A stretch of 13,883 bases of DNA from Gemmatimonadota bacterium (GTDB lineage Bacteria; Latescibacterota; UBA2968; UBA8231), in contig JAPOZF010000245.1 of the NCBI GenBank assembly GCA_026706165.1, positions 1 through 13,883 of the forward strand, written 5' to 3'. The first letter of the stretch is position 1; every line of letters begins with the position of its first letter. The translations under genes and the position numbers were made by a program. Below the pieces are notes generated by a model. That model made no database searches. It saw only the letters and a program-made list of their open reading frames with translations, and had not been told where the DNA came from. Positions 1-12,863 of the stretch are shown in pieces.

Positions 1-2076
1 GCGTCCGTTGCTGCGGTTGTAGAAGAAGCAGAACGGGTTGGGGTTGATTTCGAGTATGCTCAGGCCCCCGGAGCCGTCGATGACGTCGATGGCGTAGAAC
101 CCGAGCCGGATCACATCCGCGGCGCGCCGGGTGAGCTCGGCCATCGCCGCAAGCAGGGGACCTTCCCCGACCCTGACGGCGCGCCCGCTGGCGTGGTGCA
201 GGGGGTTGAGGCCGCCCCCGCCGATCTCGTCGCTGGTCTTCTCGTAGGCGAGCAGCAGCTCCGCTTCGCTGGCGACGATGCGGTACTCCGCTCCTTCGAC
301 GAAGGCTTGGACCAGCAGGGTGTTTTCGAGAAAACCCCCGCCGGTGAACAGGTTCTCCAAGCGCCTCGAAGCCCCCTCCCGGCAGCGTTCCAGGTAGACT
401 CCCTGGGAGACGGAGGCGCGCGGCTTCTTTATGAGCAGCGGATACGGAATGCGTTGTTCGATATCGTCGAGCATCTCCTCGACGCTGGCGTGGGTCTGGT
501 AGCGGTGAAAGCGGTCGTCGGCGTACGGGTTGAACACCTGCATCGAGCAGGGGACCGGCAGTCCTGCGGCGGCGAAGAGCTCGTGCTGGTAGCCCTTGTC
601 CCCGGCCAGCCTGGCGGCGGCATAGTCGTTGAACGGGTGGCGGTTGCGCAGGAAGTAGAACGGCCTCCCCGCCTCGTTTACCCGCAGGAGGTTGCCGTTG
701 CCCGAAACCCTCTCGCACTCGAGCCGGCGCCTCCGGCAGGAGATTTCGACGCACTCGAGGCTTTCCAGGGCGACCTCTTCGGTGATCCCCTCGGTTTCGC
801 ACGGGAGCCGGAAATGCTCGCGCGCCCGCGCCACCAGGGCCAGCGACCCGGTGACGCAGACCGGAAGCTCGCCGGAAGCGGCGGCCTCGAAGGCACGGGG
901 AAGAGGCTCGACGGTGGACGGGATCCCGGCGGGGAGGTGGCCCAGCAGGACCTCGGGCGGCCGGGCCCTGGGGTGGCCGGAGGAGGTGGCGATCACCTGT
1001 CCCGCAAGAGGGGCAAGGCAGTCGAGGATGGCGCCGGCGTCGTGGCCGCCCCCGACCCCGACGACGAAGCTCCACTTCGGATGCAGGGCGCGAAGGTCCG
1101 CGGCGAGGCCGGCGGCGGCGGCGCGGTTGTGAGCGCCGTCGAGCAGGACCAGCGGCTCCCCGTCGCGCTCGACCGCCTCGAAGCGGCCGGGCCACTCGTG
1201 CCGGGCGATCGCAGCTTCCGCCTCCGCGGGTACCAGGCGGTCCCCCAGCAGGAAGGCCGCGGCGGCCAGGGCCAGGCGCGCGTTGGCCGAGTACGTTCCG
1301 GGCCGCAGGCCCTGCCCCCGCGGGCAGGCCGGGTACGCCGCCTCGGCGCTGCAGCCCGGGGAGCCGGGAGGGAGCGCACCTTCCGGGGCCGCGGTGTAGA
1401 GAGGCACTCCCTCGGATTCGCAGTGGCGGCGGATTTTCCCGGAAACCCCGGCCTCGTGGGAATCGGTGGTGAAAAGGGGGTGTCCGGACCGGGTGATGCA
1501 GAGCTTGTCCGCGGCGATCTCCAGGACATCCTCCCCGAGGACGTCGGCGTGGTCGACGGAGATGCTGGTAAGAACCGAGAGCTCGTGGTCCCAGGCGTTG
1601 GTGGCGTCGCAGCGCCCCCCGAGGCCGACCTCGAAAAGCCCGTACTCCACTCCGGCGGCCGAGAACAGGTGGGCGGCGAGCCCGGTAAGCGCCTCGAATT
1701 TCGAGAAGCCGCCGAACCCCTCCGCGTCGAAGCCGCGGGTCGCGTCGTACAGGAAGGTCACCGCGTCCGCCCACTCGTCGGCGCCGAGCAGCTTCCCGTC
1801 GACCTGGATGCGCTCCCGCTGGGTGTGCAGGTGGGGGGAGGTGTAGAGCCCGGTCCTGCCGCCGCCTCGGAGCAGCGCCTCGAGGAGGCTGGCAACCGTG
1901 CCCTTGCCGTTGGTCCCCCCGACGATGATCGAGCGGAAGTCGTTCTGCGGGTTCCCCAGCCGGCGCAGCAGCGCCCGGGTGCGGGGCAGGTAGTGGTGCA
2001 GGGGACCTGCAGGAGGGCGCCCCCGCTCCCAGTCGGGCAGGGTGTCGAGGAATTTCCTGGCTTCCGGGTATTCCAT
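1..2076 (-). CDS. FolC-like Mur ligase fused to C-terminal ATP-grasp domain (3' end missing)
   Basis: An uninterrupted frame of 692 codons runs from the ATG at 2076 off the left edge. An in-frame TGA lies three codons upstream of the ATG, so the start is firm, although the ribosome site is weak. Residues 1-425 read as folylpolyglutamate synthase (FolC)-type Mur ligase: P-loop GTNGKGT at 54-60, TSPH near 79-82, FEVGLGGRCDATN at 148-160, SVDH at 173-176, a lysine in the usual carbamylation region (K191), WPGRFE near 295-300, DGAHN at 313-317 and VTGSLALV at 408-415. Residues 470-692 read as an ATP-grasp ligase (RimK/cyanophycin-synthetase-like): AAGLPVP at 503-509, a lysine pair K550-K551, VQAFVEGAEYR at 589-599, D664 and a metal-site EINPNP at 676-681. 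Both catalytic sets look intact. Known for the families: both form amide bonds through acyl-phosphates using ATP. Inferred: a two-step peptide or polyamino-acid ligase. The substrate is unknown and the C-terminus lies outside the window. Confidence 0.88.
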   Translation of the reverse strand, partial: MEYPEARKFLDTLPDWERGRPPAGPLHHYLPRTRALLRRLGNPQNDFRSIIVGGTNGKGTVASLLEALLRGGGRTGLYTSPHLHTQRERIQVDGKLLGADEWADAVTFLYDATRGFDAEGFGGFSKFEALTGLAAHLFSAAGVEYGLFEVGLGGRCDATNAWDHELSVLTSISVDHADVLGEDVLEIAADKLCITRSGHPLFTTDSHEAGVSGKIRRHCESEGVPLYTAAPEGALPPGSPGCSAEAAYPACPRGQGLRPGTYSANARLALAAAAFLLGDRLVPAEAEAAIARHEWPGRFEAVERDGEPLVLLDGAHNRAAAAGLAADLRALHPKWSFVVGVGGGHDAGAILDCLAPLAGQVIATSSGHPRARPPEVLLGHLPAGIPSTVEPLPRAFEAAASGELPVCVTGSLALVARAREHFRLPCETEGITEEVALESLECVEISCRRRRLECERVSGNGNLLRVNEAGRPFYFLRNRHPFNDYAAARLAGDKGYQHELFAAAGLPVPCSMQVFNPYADDRFHRYQTHASVEEMLDDIEQRIPYPLLIKKPRASVSQGVYLERCREGASRRLENLFTGGGFLENTLLVQAFVEGAEYRIVASEAELLLAYEKTSDEIGGGGLNPLHHASGRAVRVGEGPLLAAMAELTRRAADVIRLGFYAIDVIDGSGGLSILEINPNPFCFFYNRSNGR

Positions 2077-2386: not shown

Positions 2387-2392
2387 TCATCC
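2209..2392. repeat. Two-unit tandem intergenic repeat with conserved hairpins
   Basis: Two units of about 92 bp follow each other (about 2209-2300 and 2302-2392). They share an identical 26-bp core at 2239-2264 and 2331-2356. Each unit contains a 4-nt-loop hairpin: arms 2219-2227 and 2232-2240 in the first, 2313-2320 and 2325-2332 in the second. Pairing is kept although both arms differ between the copies. Each unit also has a second stem, TTGGGA with TCCCAA (2243-2248/2269-2274 and 2335-2340/2361-2366). The second unit covers the moaA stop codon. It resembles a dispersed extragenic palindromic element. The stems could act on the transcript between moaA and the ligase gene. No conserved protein is encoded here. 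Confidence 0.75.
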
Positions 2393-3430
2393 ACCCCGGG
2401 TGTGCATCTCGCGATGCGGGTCGACCTTCAATTCCTCGACGTGATAGAGCGCTCCCCGCGTCGGCTCGTTCAGCCGCTCCTCGGCGCCGCGGTCCCTGCG
2501 GCCCTCCCAGACGCGGCGGATCTGCGCGACCAGATCCCGGTGCGTGAGCCCGTCCCGCAGCCACTCGCGCAGATTGTACCCCTCGTTGGCGTACAGGCAG
2601 AGGTACCACATGCCGTCGGCGGTGACGCGGCTGCGGTCGCAAGTGGCGCAGAACGGCTCGGTGGTGGAGGCGATGATGCCGAAACAGGTGCCGTCGGGAA
2701 GGTGAAAGCGCTCCGCCGGGGCCGCCCCCCGGCCCGGAACCTCCGCGATGGCGCCGTAGTGCCCCCCCAGCCGTGCGAGGATGTCCGCTTTCGAGAAGAC
2801 CCGTTCCATCGACCAGAGGGTCGCCCCGCCGACGTCCATGTACTCGATGAAGCGGACCTCGGCCCCGACCTGCCTGCCGAACTCGATCAGGTCGACGACC
2901 TCGTCGTCGTTGAACCCCCGCATGATGACGGTGTTGATCTTGATGTCGGAGAAGGCGACGCGGGCGGCCTCGCGGATGCCGGTGAGAACGCGGTCCAGGA
3001 CCACCCGCCGGGTCAGGGTTTCGAAGCGGGCGGGATTGAGGGTGTCGAGACTCACCGTTACCCGGCTGAGCCCGGCGTCGTGCAGGGGTTCGGCCCATTT
3101 GGCCAGCTGCGTCGCGTTCGTCGTCATCGCCAGGTCCTCGACCCCGGGGCGCCGTGCCAGGCGCGCGACGAGGTCGACGAGGCCTCCGCGCAGCAGCGGC
3201 TCCCCGCCGGTCAGGCGCACCTTGCGCACCCCGAGCTCTCCGAAGGCGTCGACGGTTCGCTCGATCTCGTCGAAGGAGAGGATGTCCTCCTTCGGCAGCC
3301 AGGTGTAATCCTCCTCCGGCATGCAGTAGGCGCAGCGCAGGTCGCAGCGGTCGATGACGGAGAGGCGGAGACTTTCGAGGGGGCGGCCGAAGAGATCGTG
3401 CGCAGGGCCGGGGTTGGTGTTTGGGCTCAT
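2387..3430 (-). CDS. moaA: GTP 3',8-cyclase MoaA
   Basis: This 347-residue radical-SAM enzyme catalyses the first step of molybdenum-cofactor synthesis: GTP is converted to 3',8-cyclo-7,8-dihydro-GTP, which MoaC then uses. The radical-SAM cluster motif CDLRCAYC has cysteines 29, 33 and 36. The SAM-contact segment LTGGEPLLR lies at 73-81. The second, GTP-binding cluster is given by C261, C264 and C278, with the usual CDRSR context. The protein ends in the Gly-Gly tail (346-347) that MoaA needs for activity. Length and all key residues are normal for the family, so the enzyme should be functional. No other molybdenum-cofactor gene is visible here. It is divergent from the AAA+/VWA pair, with a plausible promoter at 3593-3620. 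The ATG at 3430 has no strong ribosome site. Confidence 0.97.
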   Translation of the reverse strand: MSPNTNPGPAHDLFGRPLESLRLSVIDRCDLRCAYCMPEEDYTWLPKEDILSFDEIERTVDAFGELGVRKVRLTGGEPLLRGGLVDLVARLARRPGVEDLAMTTNATQLAKWAEPLHDAGLSRVTVSLDTLNPARFETLTRRVVLDRVLTGIREAARVAFSDIKINTVIMRGFNDDEVVDLIEFGRQVGAEVRFIEYMDVGGATLWSMERVFSKADILARLGGHYGAIAEVPGRGAAPAERFHLPDGTCFGIIASTTEPFCATCDRSRVTADGMWYLCLYANEGYNLREWLRDGLTHRDLVAQIRRVWEGRRDRGAEERLNEPTRGALYHVEELKVDPHREMHTRGG

Positions 3431-3592
3431 GCGGTAGAAACGGGATGATCAGAGGTGCGAGATCGACGCGCCGCGAACCGTGGAGGGACCGCGTCGAAGG
3501 GGTGGTTGATCCGGCTGGCGATTCATCGGTCCGCGGCCTTCCACAAGCCTGTCGAAAGGACCATTCGGGCTGCTAAGTCGAGAAAGGACAGG

Positions 3593-3620
3593 AATATACG
3601 GACTGCCACCGGGCCGGCAA
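3593..3620 (-). promoter_or_regulatory. Candidate sigma70-type promoter for moaA
   Basis: On the minus strand TTGCCG (3620-3615) is followed after 16 bp by TATATT (3598-3593), which match the consensus at 4/6 and 5/6 positions. This would give an mRNA leader of about 155 nt before the moaA ATG. The prediction is by eye and assumes a housekeeping consensus of the usual type. Confidence 0.35.
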
Positions 3621-3625
3621 TCCGG

Positions 3626-3654
3626 TTGCGACCCCACCCTGCGGGGGGCATATT
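3626..3654 (+). promoter_or_regulatory. Candidate sigma70-type promoter for the AAA+/VWA pair
   Basis: TTGCGA (3626-3631) and CATATT (3649-3654) are separated by 17 bp and each match the consensus at 4/6 positions. Transcription would begin near 3661, leaving a leader of about 95 nt before the ATG at 3757. It sits back to back with the proposed moaA promoter, as expected for a divergent control region. This is a weak match. Confidence 0.28.
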
Positions 3655-3756
3655 AAGGGCCCGCCGAGGCGCGGCATGGCTGGCCAGACCCGGCCACGGC
3701 GGTTCCGCCTCGACGATCTCCATCCATCCCGGTTCAGTCACCCCTCCAGAAAGCCG

Positions 3757-4710
3757 ATGGCGAACCCCGAAACCGAACGCCTCGAGAAGATGCTGCGCGA
3801 GCAGCAGTACGTCGCCGATCCGGCCATCGCCATGTCCCTGCACCTGGCGCGGACCCTGAACAAGCCGCTCCTCGTGGAGGGGCCGGCGGGGGTCGGCAAG
3901 ACCGAGATCGCCAAGGTGATGGCGCGCGCTCTCGATACCGACCTGATCCGCCTGCAGTGCTACGAGGGCCTCGACACCAGCACCGCCCTGTACGAGTGGA
4001 ACTACCAGCGCCAGCTCCTCCAGATCCGCCTCGAAGAGGGGGGAGAGCGCACCCTCGACGAGCGCCAGTCCCACATCTTCAGCGAGGCGTTCCTGCTAAA
4101 GCGGCCGCTGCTCGAGGCGATCACCCACCACCGGCCCCCGGTTCTGCTGATAGACGAGCTCGACCGCGCCGACGAGGAGTTCGAGTCGTTCCTGCTCGAG
4201 GTGCTGTCCGACTGGCAGATCTCGATCCCGGAGGTCGGAACCATCGCCGCGACCCACGTCCCCCACGTCGTCATCACCTCCAACCGCACCCGCGAGCTCT
4301 CCGACGCCATTCGCCGGCGCTGCCTCTACCTGTGGATCGACTACCCGGAATTCGACAAGGAGCTGGCGATCGTGCGCGGCAAGGTCGACGGCCTCGACGC
4401 GCAGCTCGCCGACCAGATCTGCCGCTTCATGGCGCTGGTGCGGCGGCAGAAGCTCGAGAAGATCCCCGGCGTCGCCGAGACCCTGGACTGGGCAAAGGCG
4501 CTGGTCGCCCTGCACCGCAACCACCTCGATCCCGGGATCGTCGAGGAGACCCTCGGGGTGGTGTTCAAGGACTGGACCGACGTGCGCCAGATGCAGAAGT
4601 CCCTGCCCGAGTTCCTCGAGGAGCTCGGCATCCGCGCCAAGGCCCCGCCCGGAACCGAGCAGGCCCCGGAAGCGGGACAGCCCGCGGAGAGGACCGCCGG
4701 TGGCGGATAG
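3757..4710 (+). CDS. MoxR-family AAA+ ATPase (CoxD-like)
   Basis: A 317-residue single-domain AAA+ ATPase of the MoxR type. Visible motifs are Walker A GPAGVGKT (42-49), Walker B VLLIDE (129-134), sensor-1 region VITSNRTRE with N176, and the arginine-rich AIRRRC segment (185-190) that usually supplies the trans-acting arginine. MoxR ATPases work as hexamers with a VWA-domain partner to remodel or insert metals into client enzymes. CoxD, in carbon-monoxide dehydrogenase clusters, is the closest characterised type. I chose the ATG at 3757 rather than the upstream in-frame ATG at 3676, because homology-like sequence begins at MANPETERLEK and the 27 upstream residues are low-complexity and arginine-rich. 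The gene overlaps the VWA gene by 11 bp, so the two are translationally coupled. The client enzyme is not in the window. Confidence 0.9.
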   Translation: MANPETERLEKMLREQQYVADPAIAMSLHLARTLNKPLLVEGPAGVGKTEIAKVMARALDTDLIRLQCYEGLDTSTALYEWNYQRQLLQIRLEEGGERTLDERQSHIFSEAFLLKRPLLEAITHHRPPVLLIDELDRADEEFESFLLEVLSDWQISIPEVGTIAATHVPHVVITSNRTRELSDAIRRRCLYLWIDYPEFDKELAIVRGKVDGLDAQLADQICRFMALVRRQKLEKIPGVAETLDWAKALVALHRNHLDPGIVEETLGVVFKDWTDVRQMQKSLPEFLEELGIRAKAPPGTEQAPEAGQPAERTAGGG

Positions 4711-6088
4711 TCCGTCCAACGGCCGCGGACCGGCCGGACCGGAGGACCTCGCCCTGCGCGGGGAGCTGAGCGCCAACGTCGTCGGCTTCTGCCGGCTGCT
4801 GCGCCGCGAGGGTGCCGGCCCGGGGGCGGCGGAGGCCGCCGAGGCCCTGCTCGCCCTGGAGCGGGTCGATCTGGGCACCGGACGGCATTTCTACGAAGCG
4901 CTAAGGACCTGTCTCGCCAAGAGCCGCCGGGAGCAGGAGATCTTCGACTCGGTTTTCGACTCCTACTGGAAGGTCTGGGACCGCGCCGGCGAGCTTCTGC
5001 GCGGGCAGGGAGAGAATCGGGAAGAGGAGGAAGAGGAGAACAGGGAGATCCGCAATCCCTGCGGCCCGGAGCAGCAGCCGGCGCTGAAAGCGGTAACCGC
5101 CTGGCTCAAGGGAGAGAAGAAGACCGGCGACGAGGAGCCGGCCCCGGGATACAGCCCGTTCGAGGTGATGGCCCGGCGCGACTTCGCCGGCTTCCGCGCC
5201 GACGAGCTGGACGAGATCGGCCGCCTGGTGGCGCTGATCGCCAGGATCCTCGCGAGGCGCTTCAACCGCCGCTACCGCGACAGCTCCCGCCGCGGCCGCC
5301 TCGACCTGCGGCGCACCCTCAGGCGCAATCTTCGCCGCGGCGGCGAGCTCGTCGATCTCAGCTTCCGGCAGCGGCGCCGCCGGCGCCTGAAGCTGGTGCT
5401 TCTGTGCGACGTCAGCCGCTCGATGGACCTCTACAGCAGCTTTCTCATCCAGTTCGTCTACGCCTTCCAGCTCGCCTGCCGACGCGTCGAGACCTTCGTC
5501 TTCAGCACCTCCATGAGACGGGTCACCGACACTTTGGCCAACGAGGATCTCGACGAGGTGCTGGCCGCCCTGTCCCGGCAGGTTCCGGAGTGGTCGGGGG
5601 GATCACGCATCGGCGCCTCCCTGCGGACGTTCCTCGACGGCTTCGGCGACGCCCTGCTCGACCACCAGACCGCCGTCATCCTGCTGAGCGACGGCTGGGA
5701 CACCGGCGACATCGACCTGTTGCGCGACGCCATGCGGGAGATCCACCGCCGCTCGCTGGCGGTGATCTGGCTCAACCCGCTGCTCGGCTCCGAGGAGTAC
5801 CGCCCCGACACCCGGGGCATGCGCGCCGCCCTGCCGCACGTCGACCTGTTCGCCCCGGCTCACAACGCCGCCAGCCTCAAGGAGCTCGCCTCCATCCTCG
5901 GGCGCGTACAGCGCCGCGACATCCCCGCCCGCTTCGGGTTTCACCAGCGCGAGGAGGTGGAGGAAGCCGGACCGGCGGTGGCGCCGGAAGAGGACACGCC
6001 GCGGCCCAGCTCGGCAGCAAACCTCGAGCGGCTGGGCCGCGAGATGCGGGAGAAGCGGCAGAGCCGCAGGGATCAGCCGCCGGCCTGA
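4700..6088 (+). CDS. VWA domain protein, CoxE family
   Basis: A 462-residue protein starting at a GTG inside the end of the ATPase gene, preceded by a purine-rich GGAGAGG-like ribosome site. The N-terminal 100 residues are helical. An acidic stretch (about 107-115) and an arginine-rich helical segment (185-230) precede the VWA domain (about 230-410). The MIDAS metal site DVSRS has D237, S239 and S241. The conserved third-loop threonine is replaced by serine in GGSRIG (S302), and D331 of LSDGWDTG completes the site. This arrangement is typical of CoxE-like proteins, which act with CoxD-type MoxR ATPases in maturing molybdenum hydroxylases. That role is inferred here from family and pairing, as no hydroxylase gene is present. 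It is probably cytoplasmic, since no signal peptide or membrane segment is seen. Confidence 0.88.
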   Translation: MADSPSNGRGPAGPEDLALRGELSANVVGFCRLLRREGAGPGAAEAAEALLALERVDLGTGRHFYEALRTCLAKSRREQEIFDSVFDSYWKVWDRAGELLRGQGENREEEEEENREIRNPCGPEQQPALKAVTAWLKGEKKTGDEEPAPGYSPFEVMARRDFAGFRADELDEIGRLVALIARILARRFNRRYRDSSRRGRLDLRRTLRRNLRRGGELVDLSFRQRRRRRLKLVLLCDVSRSMDLYSSFLIQFVYAFQLACRRVETFVFSTSMRRVTDTLANEDLDEVLAALSRQVPEWSGGSRIGASLRTFLDGFGDALLDHQTAVILLSDGWDTGDIDLLRDAMREIHRRSLAVIWLNPLLGSEEYRPDTRGMRAALPHVDLFAPAHNAASLKELASILGRVQRRDIPARFGFHQREEVEEAGPAVAPEEDTPRPSSAANLERLGREMREKRQSRRDQPPA

Positions 6089-6316: not shown

Positions 6317-6531
6317 ATCTCAAACGCCTTGCGCAGTCCTCCCATGAGTCGGGTGGCCTGCTGAATACAACAGCCGCTGTATCCGGAGGATGGGTAGCTC
6401 CCGGCCTCCCGGTGAATAGGCAGGAACATTCCCGCATCTGAAACTGCGTGAGCGTTTGAGAACTACCCGGCACCAATGCGGTGCCGGCAAAGTCGAAGTA
6501 CGTCCATTCTCAAACGCACGGAGGAGATGCG
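6317..6531 (+). ncRNA. Candidate structured 5' leader (possible riboswitch or attenuator)
   Basis: About 215 nt lie between the proposed transcription start and the lipoprotein ATG. The 10-mer TCTCAAACGC at 6318-6327 is complementary to GCGTTTGAGA at 6452-6461. An inner helix, CGCAG (6332-6336) with CTGCG (6444-6448), extends it, closing a domain of about 145 nt. The same 10-mer occurs again at 6508-6517, just before the ribosome site GGAGGAG (6520-6526). The middle copy can therefore pair either upstream or downstream (11 bp), and the downstream pairing would enclose a hairpin at 6467-6474/6480-6487. The inner domain has further helix options, such as TCCTCC (6337-6342) with GGAGGA (6385-6390). 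I do not recognise it as a known riboswitch class. The three copies could instead be protein-binding DNA sites. Confidence 0.5.
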
Positions 6532-6945
6532 ATGCTGCCGAAGTACATCCTGCCATTTATTGCCCTGACAATGTTGACTTTCGCCCTCGGCGCCTGCGAG
6601 GGTCCTATGGGTCCGGAGGGGCCCCGGGGAGCCCGGGGAGTTCAAGGAGAGAAAGGTGAACCCGGTTTCCCCGAGTACACCCTCATCGAAATCACTCTGG
6701 GATCCAGTTTCTACAATGATGAACTCGAGAGATACATAATTCGAGACGAACGCATAGGTCTCGAAACTGTGATCAATGTCTACTTCGTAAAGTTCTATCG
6801 CAACACGAGAACCCCTTACTATGAATCATTAAGTATGATCGACGACGACGTCCGGTACTGGGTCGATGAGGGAAGGCTGCATATATACGACCGGCGTGAA
6901 GAGTTGGCGGGCGAAACGATTGTCGTCCTGGTAACGGGGGACTGA
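6532..6945 (+). CDS. Small lipoprotein with collagen-like repeat
   Basis: A 137-residue protein. I place the start at 6532 because a strong ribosome site, GGAGGAG, lies 5 nt upstream and the signal peptide begins there; an in-frame ATG at 6481 is inside the leader and lacks these. A hydrophobic signal segment (about 5-19) ends in the lipobox LGAC, with C22 as the lipidated cysteine, so export and lipid anchoring are expected. Directly after it come seven Gly-X-Y triplets (G24 to P44, closed by G45), a short collagen-like stalk rich in proline and charged residues. Residues 46-137 form a tyrosine- and acid-rich domain, probably beta-structured, of unknown function. From about 6700 onward the gene is noticeably less GC-rich than its neighbours, which may reflect transfer. 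Bacterial collagen-like stalks usually project surface domains. No partner can be named. Confidence 0.8.
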   Translation: MLPKYILPFIALTMLTFALGACEGPMGPEGPRGARGVQGEKGEPGFPEYTLIEITLGSSFYNDELERYIIRDERIGLETVINVYFVKFYRNTRTPYYESLSMIDDDVRYWVDEGRLHIYDRREELAGETIVVLVTGD

Positions 6946-7067: not shown

Positions 7068-9464
7068 TCACAGGCGCAGCCAGTAGTTGACCTTGGCGAG
7101 CCAGATGTTGTCCCCGTCGTCGGTGAAACTGGAGGCCAGGTCGCCGGCGCCGAGGCCGGGGTCGTCGTCCAAAGCGCTGCGCGACTGCGCCCAGACGAGG
7201 AACAGGGTGCTCCCGGGGGCGTACTCCCAGCGGAATACGAGGTTGCTGCGCAGCGAGCGCCTCCTGAAGTCGGGGTTTGACCCATACTCCCCGTACGGGG
7301 AGAAGCGGTAGGATTTCGGGGCGGTCAGCTCCTTGATGGCGCCGTAGTCCCCGGCGGCGGCGAACGGCTGCATGTACAGCTGCAGGCTGGCGTCGGGCGA
7401 GAACAGCAGGTCGAAGCGGGTGGTCCACTCGAGCACCCTGCTTTCGAGCTCGCCGTAGATGAACCGGTCCGGGGCACCGTCCCCGTCTTCGTCGAGGTTG
7501 GCCAGCCACTGGCCGTTGTCCTCGTTCCAGCGGAACTCCGGCCCCATGCGAACGCTGAGGCGGTCGCCGGCACGCCAGCGGAGGTCCACCTCGAGACTGC
7601 GCCAGCGGCTGCCGGCGCTGTTTCCGGCCCAGGAGAAGTCCGCCTCGGCGATCAGGGTGCGCTGGTCGTCGGTTTCGACGTCGATCCAGAAGCTGTTGTC
7701 CCGCGGCCGCCGGATCGGCGGTCCGCCGCGGGTCCCGAGATCGTCGAACACCGGGAAACCGTGCGTATAGCCGCAGCCGAGCCACCAGTAGAAAGTGGTC
7801 TCGAGGAAGGTGTAAACGTCGACCTCCTTTTCCAGCTCCAGGCCGTCGTAGTTCCAGCGATACCCCCCGTTGAACCCGAGAAACCTGCGCCGCAGAATGC
7901 CTTTCGGCCGGTATCCCTGGAACTCGACCCAGGAGCCGAGCCGGTGGTAATCCGAGCGGCGTATGAAGCCGAGGTCGTTGGCCGAGAAGCGGGGGGAGAA
8001 GGTCGTATAGCTCAGGCCCCCTTCCAGTGCGCCGCCGCGCTTACCGAAGTTCCCCTGGAAGGCGGCTCCCTGGCCATCGTCGCGGGTGCGGCTCGAGGCG
8101 AGCTGGCCGCGCAGCTGCCACCTGTTGTCGCTCCAGTTGAGATTCCAGTCGGCCCCGCCGGCGTAGGCATTGCCGCCGCGGGAGCGGTTGACCGCGGTGA
8201 CGATGCCGCCGACGTGGGAGTTCCCGGCGAGCAGGTCCCGCTTCAGGCGCGCCACCCCGTAATGGGTTCGCGGCTCGACCAGGTGGCGGCGGGATCCGGA
8301 TTCTCCCGGGTCCCGCACGCGCGCCTCTTCCCCGGAGGTCAGGGCCTGCAGCAGTCCGAAGGTCGTGCCCCCGGAAGTGCGGCCGGTGACCTTGGACGCC
8401 TCGAGGATGGTCGTGAAGTCGGGCCGGTCGATCTCCTCGGCGCCGTCCGGGATCGGGAACCGGGAGGGTGGCCGGCCGATGCGGCGCGAGTAGAAGAGGT
8501 CGAACGGCGTGTCGAACACCTGTGCGTCCTTGCTGAAGAAGGGGCGCCGCTCCTCGTAGAAGGTCTCGAAGACGCCGAGGTTGAGCACCGCGGGGTCCGC
8601 CTCCACCTGGCCGAAGTCGGGGTTCGCGGTGCCGTGGAGGCTGATGTTCGAGGTCAGTCCGTAGCGGACGTCGGCCCCGAGGTTGCCGAGATATCCGCGC
8701 CCGTCCGGGTCGACGGATGTCGGCGGCGAGAAGATCGACCGCCCGACGAGGTGGGGCCGCACCTCGAGGGCGGTTTCCGGGGAGACGTCCCGGATGCCGC
8801 GCAGGTCCCCGAAGCGGGACACGAACCCCTCGTCCTGCACGCGGAGGGGGACCCAGAAAGAGTTCTCCTTCAGGCGCGACGTGTAGCGGTCGATCTGCAG
8901 GCCCCAGGTCGAGTCGGCCCCGGTGAAGCGGAAGTTGTGGAACGGGATGCGCACCTCCGCGGTCCAGCCCTGTTCGCCGACCCGCGTGTGCGATTCGAAC
9001 ACCCCGTCCCAGGTGTAGGTTTCCCGATCGTCGTTGAAATACACCCCGTCGATCACGGTACCGCCCGCGGTGATGAAGAAGGAGTAGGCGGTCTGGCGGT
9101 CGTGGTTGGAGTCGAGGGTGAGGTGAATCCAGTCCGTCTCCTTGATGATCCACTGATCGCGCCTGCCGAGGCGGGTGACGATCTCGTCCGGCTGCTCGTC
9201 GAAGCAGACCGCTCCCATGTACAGGGCTTCGTCGTCGTAGAGGAAGCGGACCTCGGTGCGCTGGGTCGCCGGGAGGCCCTCGTCCGGGAAGCGCTGCGTG
9301 AAGGAATCGATGACCGGGGCGGTCAGCCACGACGGTTCGTCGAGGAAGCCGTCGCAGCGGATGGGGCTGTCGGTCCGGACCGCCTCGGCGGTTGGCACGG
9401 AAGCGGAAGCCGCGGCGGGCAGGGCGGCGAAGGTGAAAAGGGGGATCAGGAATGCTGGAATCAT
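7068..9464 (-). CDS. Outer-membrane CBM9-like/DUF5916 family protein
   Basis: A 798-residue exported protein counted from the ATG at 9464. Residues 1-22 are a signal peptide, with a hydrophobic core followed by an AAASAS cleavage region. Residues about 30-195 form a CBM9-like beta-sandwich: IRCDGFLDEPSW near 35-46, VRFLYDDEALYMG at 72-84, and TAEVRIPF near 168-175. The rest, with alternating strands and many aromatic residues, reads as the DUF5916 beta-barrel region, including the family-typical FETFYEERRPFF. Proteins of this type are common in GC-rich environmental bacteria and are predicted outer-membrane barrels with an outward carbohydrate-binding-like domain. No reaction is established. 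In-frame starts also exist at 9485 (ATG, inside the duplicated start segment) and 9518 (GTG); the latter falls within the proposed -10 box and is unlikely. The protein ends in VNYWLRL, without the usual terminal aromatic residue. Confidence 0.85.
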   Translation of the reverse strand: MIPAFLIPLFTFAALPAAASASVPTAEAVRTDSPIRCDGFLDEPSWLTAPVIDSFTQRFPDEGLPATQRTEVRFLYDDEALYMGAVCFDEQPDEIVTRLGRRDQWIIKETDWIHLTLDSNHDRQTAYSFFITAGGTVIDGVYFNDDRETYTWDGVFESHTRVGEQGWTAEVRIPFHNFRFTGADSTWGLQIDRYTSRLKENSFWVPLRVQDEGFVSRFGDLRGIRDVSPETALEVRPHLVGRSIFSPPTSVDPDGRGYLGNLGADVRYGLTSNISLHGTANPDFGQVEADPAVLNLGVFETFYEERRPFFSKDAQVFDTPFDLFYSRRIGRPPSRFPIPDGAEEIDRPDFTTILEASKVTGRTSGGTTFGLLQALTSGEEARVRDPGESGSRRHLVEPRTHYGVARLKRDLLAGNSHVGGIVTAVNRSRGGNAYAGGADWNLNWSDNRWQLRGQLASSRTRDDGQGAAFQGNFGKRGGALEGGLSYTTFSPRFSANDLGFIRRSDYHRLGSWVEFQGYRPKGILRRRFLGFNGGYRWNYDGLELEKEVDVYTFLETTFYWWLGCGYTHGFPVFDDLGTRGGPPIRRPRDNSFWIDVETDDQRTLIAEADFSWAGNSAGSRWRSLEVDLRWRAGDRLSVRMGPEFRWNEDNGQWLANLDEDGDGAPDRFIYGELESRVLEWTTRFDLLFSPDASLQLYMQPFAAAGDYGAIKELTAPKSYRFSPYGEYGSNPDFRRRSLRSNLVFRWEYAPGSTLFLVWAQSRSALDDDPGLGAGDLASSFTDDGDNIWLAKVNYWLRL

Positions 9465-9500
9465 TGCATGCTCGCAGGTAATCATTGCATGCTCGCAGGT
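9459..9500. repeat. Perfect 21-bp tandem duplication at the DUF5916 gene start
   Basis: Positions 9459-9479 and 9480-9500 are identical. Each copy contains the minus-strand ATG and its upstream ribosome-binding region, so there are two in-frame starts (9464 and 9485) seven codons apart. Starting at the upstream one adds MITCEHA before the signal peptide. The repeat length is a multiple of three, so it does not break the frame. It looks like a recent slippage event. Confidence 0.9.
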
Positions 9501-9516
9501 GAAGTGGAATGAATCC

Positions 9517-9546
9517 ACGCTACGGGGGGTAGTGGAACAGTGTCAA
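9517..9546 (-). promoter_or_regulatory. Candidate promoter for the DUF5916-type gene
   Basis: On the minus strand a perfect TTGACA (9546-9541) is followed after 18 bp by TAGCGT (9522-9517), a poor -10 match (3/6). Transcription would start near 9510, about 25 nt before the first ATG (9485) and 46 nt before the second (9464). This argues against the GTG at 9518 as the start codon. Confidence 0.35.
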
Positions 9547-10709: not shown

Positions 10710-12863
10710 GTGAGCGAGACTGAAACAACAGGCCGCGGAATGCCTGCCGGGTACCGGGAGCACCTGGCCAGTCGCGACCGCGCCTCCCTCCGGCTTCGGT
10801 CGGGAGACCTGACCTGGCGGGGATTCCTGGTCGGCGGTCTGCTCAGCTTCTTCCTCGCCACCGGCGCCCCGTACGCCAACATGGTGCTGACGGACTACGT
10901 GTCGGCCGACTTCGACACCCGGGGCGCCATCCTTCTCTTCTTCCTCCTGGTCGGGGGGCTGAACCTCCTTTTCAAGCTTGCCGGCCGCGGCATGGCCCAT
11001 GCCCTGGCTCTTGCCGCGGTCACCTCGGCGGGCTGGGTCTGGGCTTATCGGCCGTTGGAGGAGATCGATCCCTACTCACCCGGCTTCCTCTTCAACAGCC
11101 TGCTTGCGCTGGCCTCCCTGACCAACGTTCCGGCGGTGGCGCGGGGCCGCAGCCTCGCCCTCAATCGCTCGGAGCTGATCCTCGTGTACGCGATGATGCT
11201 TATCGTCTCCGCCCTCTGCACCATGGGGATGAGCGAGCAGCTGCCGGGGATGATCAACGCCATCTTCTACTACGCCTCGCCGGAGAACCAGTGGGCCGAG
11301 CGGCTGTTCCCCCTGATCGACAGGCGCATCGTCGTCGACGACGGCGCCGGCAACGTCCTGTTCTACGAGGGGGTGGGGGAAGGGGAGATCCCGTACGGCG
11401 CCTGGGTCGAGCCGATGCTCTGGTGGGCGGTCTTCCTGCTGGCCCTGTACGTGGCGATGGTTTCGGTCGTCGTGATCCTGCGGCGCCAGTGGATGGAGCG
11501 GGAACGGCTCGCCTATCCGGTGGTGCAGGTGGGGCTGGCGATGATCCGGGGAGAGCGGCAGGACCGCCTGGTCAACCGCTTCTTCAAGAGCCCCTCCATG
11601 TGGATAGGATGGTCGATTCCGATGTTCGTCGGCCTTCTCGCCGCCCTGCCGTCGTACGGAATCAACGTTCCCAGGCCGACCCTGACCTGGACCGCCTCCC
11701 TTTTGGGGGTGCAGGGCATCAACATGAAGGTCAACTTCGTCGTCCTGGGGTTTTCCTACCTGATCCACACCCACCTCGCTCTGGGAATCTGCGTCTTCCA
11801 CCTGGTGGCCAAGTGCGAGAAGGCCATTTTCCAGATCGCCGGAATCACCTCGCCCCAGACGATCGTCTTCGGGGTCGGCGGCTTTCCCCTGCTGGGGTAC
11901 CAGGGGACCGGGGCGCTGATCGCCATGGTCCTGGTCGGGCTGTGGGTGGGCCGCGAGCATCTCAAGGCGGTGGTGCTCAAGGCGGCAGGCCTGGCGCCGC
12001 ACGTCGACGACAGCGACGAGATCATGTCCTACCGCGGCGCCGTGGCCGGGGCCGCGGGCGGGGTTCTGGTGATGGTTGTCTGGCTCTGGATCATGGGCAC
12101 GCCGGCGTGGATCTCCCTGCTCTTCGTCGTCGCCGCGCTGCTGATCTTCATCGGCATTACCCGCATCGTGGTCGAGGCCGGGGTGGTCCAGCTGCGGGCG
12201 CCGATATGCGCCCCCGACCTGGTGATCCAGGGGATCGGCTCCAGCTTGGTCGGAACCACCGGGGTGTTGAACCTGTCCCTCTCCTACCTGTGGGCGGCCG
12301 ACGTCAGGGTTTTCGTCATGGGCACCTGCGCCAACGCCCTCAAGATGATCGAGGAGATGGACCCTCGCAGCCGGCGCCTGGTGTTCTGGGGGATCGTCCT
12401 GGCACTGCTTATCGGAGCCCTCGGCTCGCTGTGGATGATCTTCCACCTCACCTACAACTACGGCGGGGTGAACATGAACAGCTGGTTTTTCCACAGGGGG
12501 CCGGCCGTCGCCTACGAGAATGCGGTGCGCAACCTCGGGCCCCGGGGGGTGTACTGGCCGGGGGTTGGGTTCTTCGCCGGCGGGGGGGTGGCCATGGCGC
12601 TGATGATGCTCGCCCGCGCCCGCCTCTCCTGGTGGCCTGTGCATCCCATCGGGTTCCCCATAGGCGCCAACAGCATGACCGACTGGATCTGGTTCTCGGT
12701 GTTTCTCGCCTGGGCGGTAAAGGTGTGCGTGCTGCGCTTCGGAGGGGGGAGCGGCTACCGCCGCAGCCTGCCGTTCTTCCTCGGGATCCTCACCGGCGAG
12801 GTCACGAGCATGGGAGTGTGGCTCGTCGTCGACTACTTCACCGGAACCATCCTGAAGGCCTGA
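10710..12863 (+). CDS. DUF6785/DUF6784-like polytopic membrane protein
   Basis: A 717-residue integral membrane protein with about 14 predicted helices, from residue 38 to near 712. Segments match the large uncharacterised family often annotated DUF6785 with C-terminal DUF6784: LNRSELILVYAMML (151-164), a soluble loop with YASPENQWAERLFP (188-201), RRQWMERERLAYPVVQ (258-273), a conserved region around ITRIVVEAGV, and the C-terminal WWPVHPIGFPIG (641-652) followed by an YRRSLPFFLG helix. The topology recalls OPT-type transporters, so transport is plausible, but no substrate is known. The GTG at 10710 has only a weak ribosome site; an ATG at 10740 is an alternative start that would remove ten non-conserved residues. 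The family is frequently found beside carbohydrate-handling genes, and here it follows a sugar isomerase-like gene. The family assignment is from memory of motifs. Confidence 0.75.
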   Translation: MSETETTGRGMPAGYREHLASRDRASLRLRSGDLTWRGFLVGGLLSFFLATGAPYANMVLTDYVSADFDTRGAILLFFLLVGGLNLLFKLAGRGMAHALALAAVTSAGWVWAYRPLEEIDPYSPGFLFNSLLALASLTNVPAVARGRSLALNRSELILVYAMMLIVSALCTMGMSEQLPGMINAIFYYASPENQWAERLFPLIDRRIVVDDGAGNVLFYEGVGEGEIPYGAWVEPMLWWAVFLLALYVAMVSVVVILRRQWMERERLAYPVVQVGLAMIRGERQDRLVNRFFKSPSMWIGWSIPMFVGLLAALPSYGINVPRPTLTWTASLLGVQGINMKVNFVVLGFSYLIHTHLALGICVFHLVAKCEKAIFQIAGITSPQTIVFGVGGFPLLGYQGTGALIAMVLVGLWVGREHLKAVVLKAAGLAPHVDDSDEIMSYRGAVAGAAGGVLVMVVWLWIMGTPAWISLLFVVAALLIFIGITRIVVEAGVVQLRAPICAPDLVIQGIGSSLVGTTGVLNLSLSYLWAADVRVFVMGTCANALKMIEEMDPRSRRLVFWGIVLALLIGALGSLWMIFHLTYNYGGVNMNSWFFHRGPAVAYENAVRNLGPRGVYWPGVGFFAGGGVAMALMMLARARLSWWPVHPIGFPIGANSMTDWIWFSVFLAWAVKVCVLRFGGGSGYRRSLPFFLGILTGEVTSMGVWLVVDYFTGTILKA

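Follow-up and report, generated by a model that had tools for sequence, protein, structure and literature searches.

The window analyzed here is a stretch of 13,883 nucleotides (nt), positions 1 to 13,883 of contig JAPOZF010000245.1 in assembly GCA_026706165.1, and it carries at its start a gene in which a FolC-type ligase is followed, in the same reading frame, by an ATP-grasp ligase. Based on sequence comparisons, this fusion is on balance probably a bifunctional folate-tail enzyme, in which the FolC half would make (dihydro)folate and the ATP-grasp half would add one or more amino acids, most likely glutamate and possibly alpha-linked. The fusion is genuine and widespread and is borne by a large part of one phylum.

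The frame was stop-free from window position 2076 to position 1 on the minus strand and ran off the end of the window. An initial annotation of this DNA had described a single 692-codon frame without giving its strand, and every motif that it named was found at the residue where it had been placed. The record standing for the window protein (P0003) was 710 amino acids (aa) long and differed from it at a single residue, at position 72; because 692 codons are present, the last 18 residues lie outside the window, and P0003 supplies this end of the protein. The features of the gene are as follows, with conservation counts from 58 aligned sequences.

Window 1..2076, minus strand: fusion gene; 692 codons present, with the 3' end past the window edge.
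Window 805..2076, minus strand: FolC half (residues 1-424), folylpolyglutamate/dihydrofolate synthase fold.
Window 1897..1917, minus strand: P-loop GTNGKGT (residues 54-60).
Window 1549..1554, minus strand: D175-H176 (the SVDH motif ends at 176), 58/58.
Window 1504..1506, minus strand: K191, 58/58, aligned with the lysine of REKAGI in Escherichia coli FolC.
Window 1126..1140, minus strand: DGAHN (residues 313-317); counts cover D313 and H316 (58/58) and G314 and N317 (57/58).
Window 1039..1047, minus strand: GHD (residues 344-346), at the site of the DKD segment of ordinary FolC; H345, 58/58.
Window 1..780, minus strand: ATP-grasp half (residues 433-692 in the window), RimK/LysX/ArgX-type ligase fold, on a basis that includes the isolated domain of relative L005.
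Window 427..429, minus strand: K550 of the ATP-grasp half, 58/58, aligned with K of VVK in RimK (5zct).
Window 85..87, minus strand: D664 of the ATP-grasp half, 58/58, aligned with D of RimK.
Window 37..51, minus strand: EINPN metal site (E676-N680); E676, N678, and N680, 58/58, the first two of these aligned with E and N of RimK.

Compared to the NCBIfam folC model (TIGR01499), the FolC half scored 251.5 bits over residues 30 to 420 (cut-off, 162.65), and the FolC fold spanned its whole length. The FolC motif list consists of a P-loop, a DH pair, a lysine, and DGAHN; this set was present in the 58 sequences and aligned to solved FolC. The ATP-grasp half had the fold, the ATP lysine, and the metal D/E/N residues of the ATP-grasp superfamily. 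It was not filed as RimK, as it scored 37.5 bits over residues 482 to 681 against rimK_fam (TIGR00768; cut-off, 143.4) and 18.5 bits against the Pfam RimK model (gathering threshold, 21). RimK was among its closest folds among the matches listed (the best 50 of each structure comparison). In the comparison made with the isolated ATP-grasp domain of L005 (the VIA list), RimK tied with D-Ala-D-Ala ligase (20.4) and cyanophycin synthetase (20.3), all only 2 Z units under the best match. PF27239, which appears in the precomputed Pfam annotation of relatives, was considered as a linker domain and dropped; most unfused FolC proteins also have PF27239, and it seems to belong to FolC.

Residues D175, H176, K191, D313, H316, K550, D664, E676, N678, and N680 were invariant in the 58 relatives, in agreement with the earlier view that both active sites are intact. 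K191 is presumably the lysine that is carbamylated in FolC, and we take K550 and D664 to be the ATP-binding lysine and a metal-site residue of the ATP-grasp half, respectively. Within the P-loop, G54, N56, G57, and K58 were fixed (58/58), with T55 in 54, G59 in 55, and T60 in 56 of the sequences. Mean pairwise identity was 56.4% for the FolC half and 59.7% for the ATP-grasp half, the latter being the more conserved in 1,305 of 1,653 pairs, and selection is judged from these alignments to act on both halves.

A search with residues 425 to 692 alone returned 206 proteins at E ≤ 1e-5; among the best 120 listed, 119 were of fusion length (678 to 784 aa), the exception being P0097 (519 aa). Scanning one genome per species (84,980 species) with two exact peptide patterns, a procedure that misses members with neither pattern, recovered 39 fusion loci. 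All 39 had a coordinate counterpart (7 via more than one coordinate match) in genomes of a single phylum, that of genome G001, which is titled Latescibacteria; the phylum is called Latescibacterota here after record titles, and 64 of its genomes were examined. Both halves were matched in 42 of the 64, including four chromosome-size assemblies, with the match in G044 reaching residue 672 and that in G053 falling in two pieces of one frame. Two further genomes (G054 and G049) had a close FolC half cut by a contig end, 15 had FolC with no ATP-grasp match (only fragments in G016, G022, and G023), and 5 had no match. Twelve of the 15 FolC-only cases were fetched; their frames were 432 to 464 aa long and 29.5% to 35.4% identical to the query, their alignments stopped at query residues 371 to 430, and the second half was absent. 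An assembly error or frameshift joining two genes, which the initial annotation had named as a possible undoing of its claim, is refuted for the family by the 42 genomes and by the fusion length of 119 of the 120 listed protein clusters, and its probability is negligible. The same lengths and genome matches establish FolC first and ATP-grasp second as a true fusion. Several loci (L006, L008, L013, L019, and others) are titled Gemmatimonadetes, Gemmatimonadota, or Gemmatimonas and group with the Latescibacteria genome G001; these titles look wrong.

An ATP-grasp profile gave 44 matches in the 64 genomes, all inside fusion frames, and no free-standing ATP-grasp domain was seen in these genomes. 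One of the 44 was a partial second copy in G029, a genome that has a whole fusion in addition to this second, partial fusion-like FolC (G029:C48:1690-3048). A wider profile search for a free-standing domain, in which scoring was confined to the 7999 candidates with the most shared words, returned 35 proteins at E ≤ 1e-5, and the 7 of these that were read were each set aside: a FolC end preceded the domain in P0126, P0138, P0139, and P0140, P0143 began inside the domain, and P0141 and P0147, which open with parts of unrelated proteins (PF04898 and PF00902 in the precomputed Pfam annotation), are probably chimeric contigs. Several of the remaining 28 also list the FolC-side domain PF02875. No match was found among viral contigs by tblastn with patterns from the window protein alone, a search whose reach is limited to close relatives.

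In an unrooted tree from a quick search, for which 21 fusions were taken from the 120 listed and combined with 36 other rows, the 21 fused FolC halves formed one group (Shimodaira-Hasegawa-like approximate likelihood ratio test [SH-aLRT] support, 100) on a long branch, with 1.23 and 0.78 changes per column on either side of the midpoint root. An unfused Latescibacterota FolC was the query of the search that supplied the outgroup, and the tree shows the grouping of the fused halves, not their nearest FolC relative. These results are consistent with a single origin of the fused FolC halves. For a column-by-column comparison, 116 fusions (what remained of the listed 120 after filtering by length and motif) were set against 116 unfused relatives (those longer than 400 aa among the best 120 listed, with the same search bias as the tree outgroup). 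At least 90% of the unfused relatives agreed at 81 columns; the fusions had the same consensus at 62 of these and a different one at 19. The lysine of DKD was replaced by H345 and another lysine by R196 in the fusions, each at a printed frequency of 1.0; G344 was present in 91% of the fusions, and K occupied position 345 in 95% of the unfused relatives. DKD or DKN was found in five aligned solved FolC proteins (DKN in that of Thermotoga maritima), and the canonical DKD segment, which is frequent in FolC without defining it, was absent from the fusion. A lysine of MurD in the neighborhood of this position contacts the incoming glutamate; if the two positions correspond, the amino-acid site of the FolC half may be altered, which is taken as a lead only.

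The fusion was the sole match above the folC cut-off in all 10 genomes searched, weaker matches below the cut-off being taken as Mur ligases, and a separate normal folC, for which the initial annotation had recommended a check, was not found in these 10. Dihydropteroate synthase (DHPS) was found in all four chromosome-size assemblies. A CofE-type substitute for FolC, such as chlamydiae use according to excerpts of PMC1971073, was found in none of the four. Among the 39 loci, thyA and/or folA lay within about 4 kb of the fusion in 9, on the opposite strand and with rimO between. A moaA gene was located just upstream of the fusion on the same strand in 20 (gap, -1 to 86 nt), and a Cys/Met-type pyridoxal phosphate (PLP) enzyme was present in 19, directly downstream in 16. 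Neither moaA nor thyA/folA was present in 10 loci, of which L003 and L026 are accounted for by a contig end. Neighbors were named by profile for moaA (window), the PLP enzyme (L002 and L009), and thyA, folA, and rimO (L022), and by BLAST clusters for the others. Because the fusion is the sole FolC in 10/10 genomes, DHPS is present in 4/4, and thyA/folA are near in 9/39 loci, an ordinary folate role is the first assumption, and the undescribed polymer at which the initial annotation had hinted is less well supported.

Under this assumption, the FolC half would be the dihydrofolate synthase of the cell and perhaps also its folylpolyglutamate synthase; it would form an activated acyl phosphate at the carboxylate of dihydropteroate or folate and then join glutamate there, and it might also attach the first gamma-glutamates. 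The ATP-grasp half would likewise be an ATP-dependent ligase, one of the same type as RimK, LysX, ArgX, and MptN; it would take a glutamate-ended folate as its substrate and add at least one further amino acid, most likely glutamate, possibly via the alpha-carboxylate. In a variant of this scheme, the FolC half would add the first glutamate only and the ATP-grasp half all later ones. We infer that both halves act on folate, that glutamate is the second amino acid, and what the linkage is; the two amide-bond steps on one product that had been suggested earlier are, by this reasoning, probable. A more specific proposal is tentative and, in our judgment, somewhat doubtful: that a whole lineage within Latescibacterota makes an undescribed folate. 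In this scheme, a second ligase dedicated to the purpose would complete the tail by attaching an alpha-linked glutamate or a different amino acid, and the intermediate would be handed over within the enzyme, from the active site of FolC to that of the ATP-grasp half.

Several observations weigh against the fusion being a folate-tail enzyme. The neighbor in 20 of the 39 loci is moaA, a molybdenum-cofactor gene and no folate gene, and 10 loci have neither moaA nor thyA/folA. The ATP-grasp half scores under the curated RimK cut-offs, and its amino acid is not readable from the fold, because D-Ala-D-Ala ligase and cyanophycin synthetase tie with RimK below the best match. The 19 of 81 columns that differ from unfused FolC may mean altered substrate use. 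That last result, including the loss of the lysine of DKD, and the long branch of the fused halves would also fit a FolC half that is no longer a folate enzyme; the fusion would then make a different molecule ending in glutamate, starting from a pterin-like compound or some other carboxylate. Such a change of pathway is improbable given the sole FolC match, the presence of DHPS, and the lack of a CofE-type substitute in the genomes searched; without a folate role for the fusion, no known enzyme would be left in these cells to follow DHPS in the pathway. The agreement at 62 of the 81 columns also speaks against it.

The halves might alternatively act on separate things, FolC on folate and the ATP-grasp domain on a protein, a peptide, or another metabolite, and be joined only for shared expression. 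No protein exceeded the RimK cut-off in three of the four chromosome-size assemblies (G001 to G003, where the fusion itself scored 42.0 to 54.8 bits), and the ATP-grasp half, with RimK among the closest of its listed folds, could stand in locally for RimK there. However, G004 holds both the fusion and a separate RimK (274.9 bits), and a free-standing function would not need all 44 ATP-grasp profile matches to sit in fusion frames; separate roles are considered unlikely. Far less probable is a cyanophycin-synthetase-like polymerase with swapped domains that makes a branched polyamide. The two families do share ATP-grasp and Mur-type ligases in one chain, and yet the fusion scored 25.7 bits against the cyanophycin synthetase model (cut-off, 850), and the order of the domains was reversed relative to that enzyme, as the initial annotation had it, in the window as well as in each of the 31 relatives aligned. 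The polymerase was rejected on this score and order and on the sole-FolC result, and the fusion is most likely, as far as its sequence and genomic setting indicate, a housekeeping folate enzyme of its host.

Elsewhere in the window, the nearest gene is the following.

Window 2387..3430, minus strand: moaA, upstream of the fusion gene and 310 nt from it (TIGR02666, 351 bits; cut-off, 284.05).

Between the fusion gene and moaA lie two copies of a 62-nt direct repeat (2239-2300 and 2331-2392; 87% alike), of which the one at 2331-2392 enters the end of moaA. Window positions 2387-6088 encode moaA, an AAA-type ATPase (best match, MadB family, below the cut-off; "MoxR-like" is our own label), and a CoxE-type von Willebrand factor A (VWA) protein, a gene set that would appear to serve in the maturation of a molybdenum hydroxylase. 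In 7 related loci, a protein similar to XdhC, scoring under its cut-offs, was found near the fusion. The remainder of the window includes a DUF5916 protein (7068-9518), a DUF6785/DUF6784 protein (10710-12863), and, at 6481-6945, a small putative lipoprotein; the lipoprotein contains a brief collagen-like segment (GPMGPEGPRGARGVQGEKGEPG) and matched no Pfam family.

Known systems resemble the fusion in its parts. With FolC of E. coli (1w78), Mycobacterium tuberculosis (2vos), and Lactobacillus casei (1jbw), it shares the whole fold, the P-loop, DH, the lysine, DGAHN, and an above-cut-off score, whereas it differs in bearing a whole ATP-grasp ligase at its C terminus and H for K in the DKD segment (58/58). 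With the RimK, LysX, and ArgX ligases, its ATP-grasp half shares the fold, the lysine, and the metal residues; it differs in its sub-cut-off RimK score, in being joined to FolC, and in never standing free in the 64 genomes. Characterized ligases of this kind attach glutamate, or a compound related to it, to terminal carboxylates. LysX and ArgX, as PDB titles have it, act on LysW. The substrate is ribosomal protein S6 for RimK, the glutamates of methylofuran for MyfB, and the hydroxyglutarate end of tetrahydromethanopterin for MptN (excerpts of PMC8141765), and CofF places an alpha-linked glutamate after the gamma-linked ones on F420 (excerpts of PMC8498797). CofF, MptN, and MyfB are likened to the ATP-grasp half by published activity only, not by sequence; as these excerpts describe them, such ligases complete the tails of one-carbon and redox cofactors other than folate, and FolC followed by ATP-grasp would correspond, for folate, to CofE followed by CofF.

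Two 1986 papers (Ferone et al.) reportedly described E. coli folates that bear alpha-carboxyl-linked glutamates, together with an enzyme preparation adding them, which, at the level of the title, is the same activity as that proposed here for the ATP-grasp half; to our knowledge, the gene for the E. coli enzyme is still unassigned. Folate tails are usually described as gamma-glutamates (excerpts of PMC1971073). If the tentative proposal of a dedicated second ligase is true, the same ATP-grasp logic would provide what may be, as far as the open-licence literature searched shows, the first bacterial gene for folate tails with alpha linkages. The joining of FolC to such a ligase links the second activity to folate through gene structure and can be tested directly in E. 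coli. If the folate-tail reading holds, a group of uncultured bacteria may complete this vitamin's tail by an unusual route of two steps.

The initial annotation knew of no characterized enzyme with a FolC-like half first and ATP-grasp second, and no treatment of such a fusion was found in titles or abstracts of the open-licence literature; the portions of PMC11915815 consulted treat CphA as an ATP-grasp and Mur fusion and name folylpolyglutamate synthase (FPGS) without one. The parts are of known kinds, and what that literature did not show is their combination in this order as the only FolC of a lineage. The more general pairing of a Mur ligase with an ATP-grasp ligase in this order does have a precedent in the MurC/Ddl fusion of Chlamydia trachomatis, which has been characterized (excerpts of PMC4803751). 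Its MurC-first order is taken from its name, and it is compared here by description, not by sequence; it differs from the present fusion in serving peptidoglycan synthesis and in not being FolC. Cyanophycin synthetase CphA1 likewise has ATP-grasp and a Mur-type ligase in one chain, in the order N domain, ATP-grasp, and MurE-like domain (excerpts of PMC9427784), so that ATP-grasp precedes the Mur-type domain there, whereas in the fusion FolC comes first and ATP-grasp follows.
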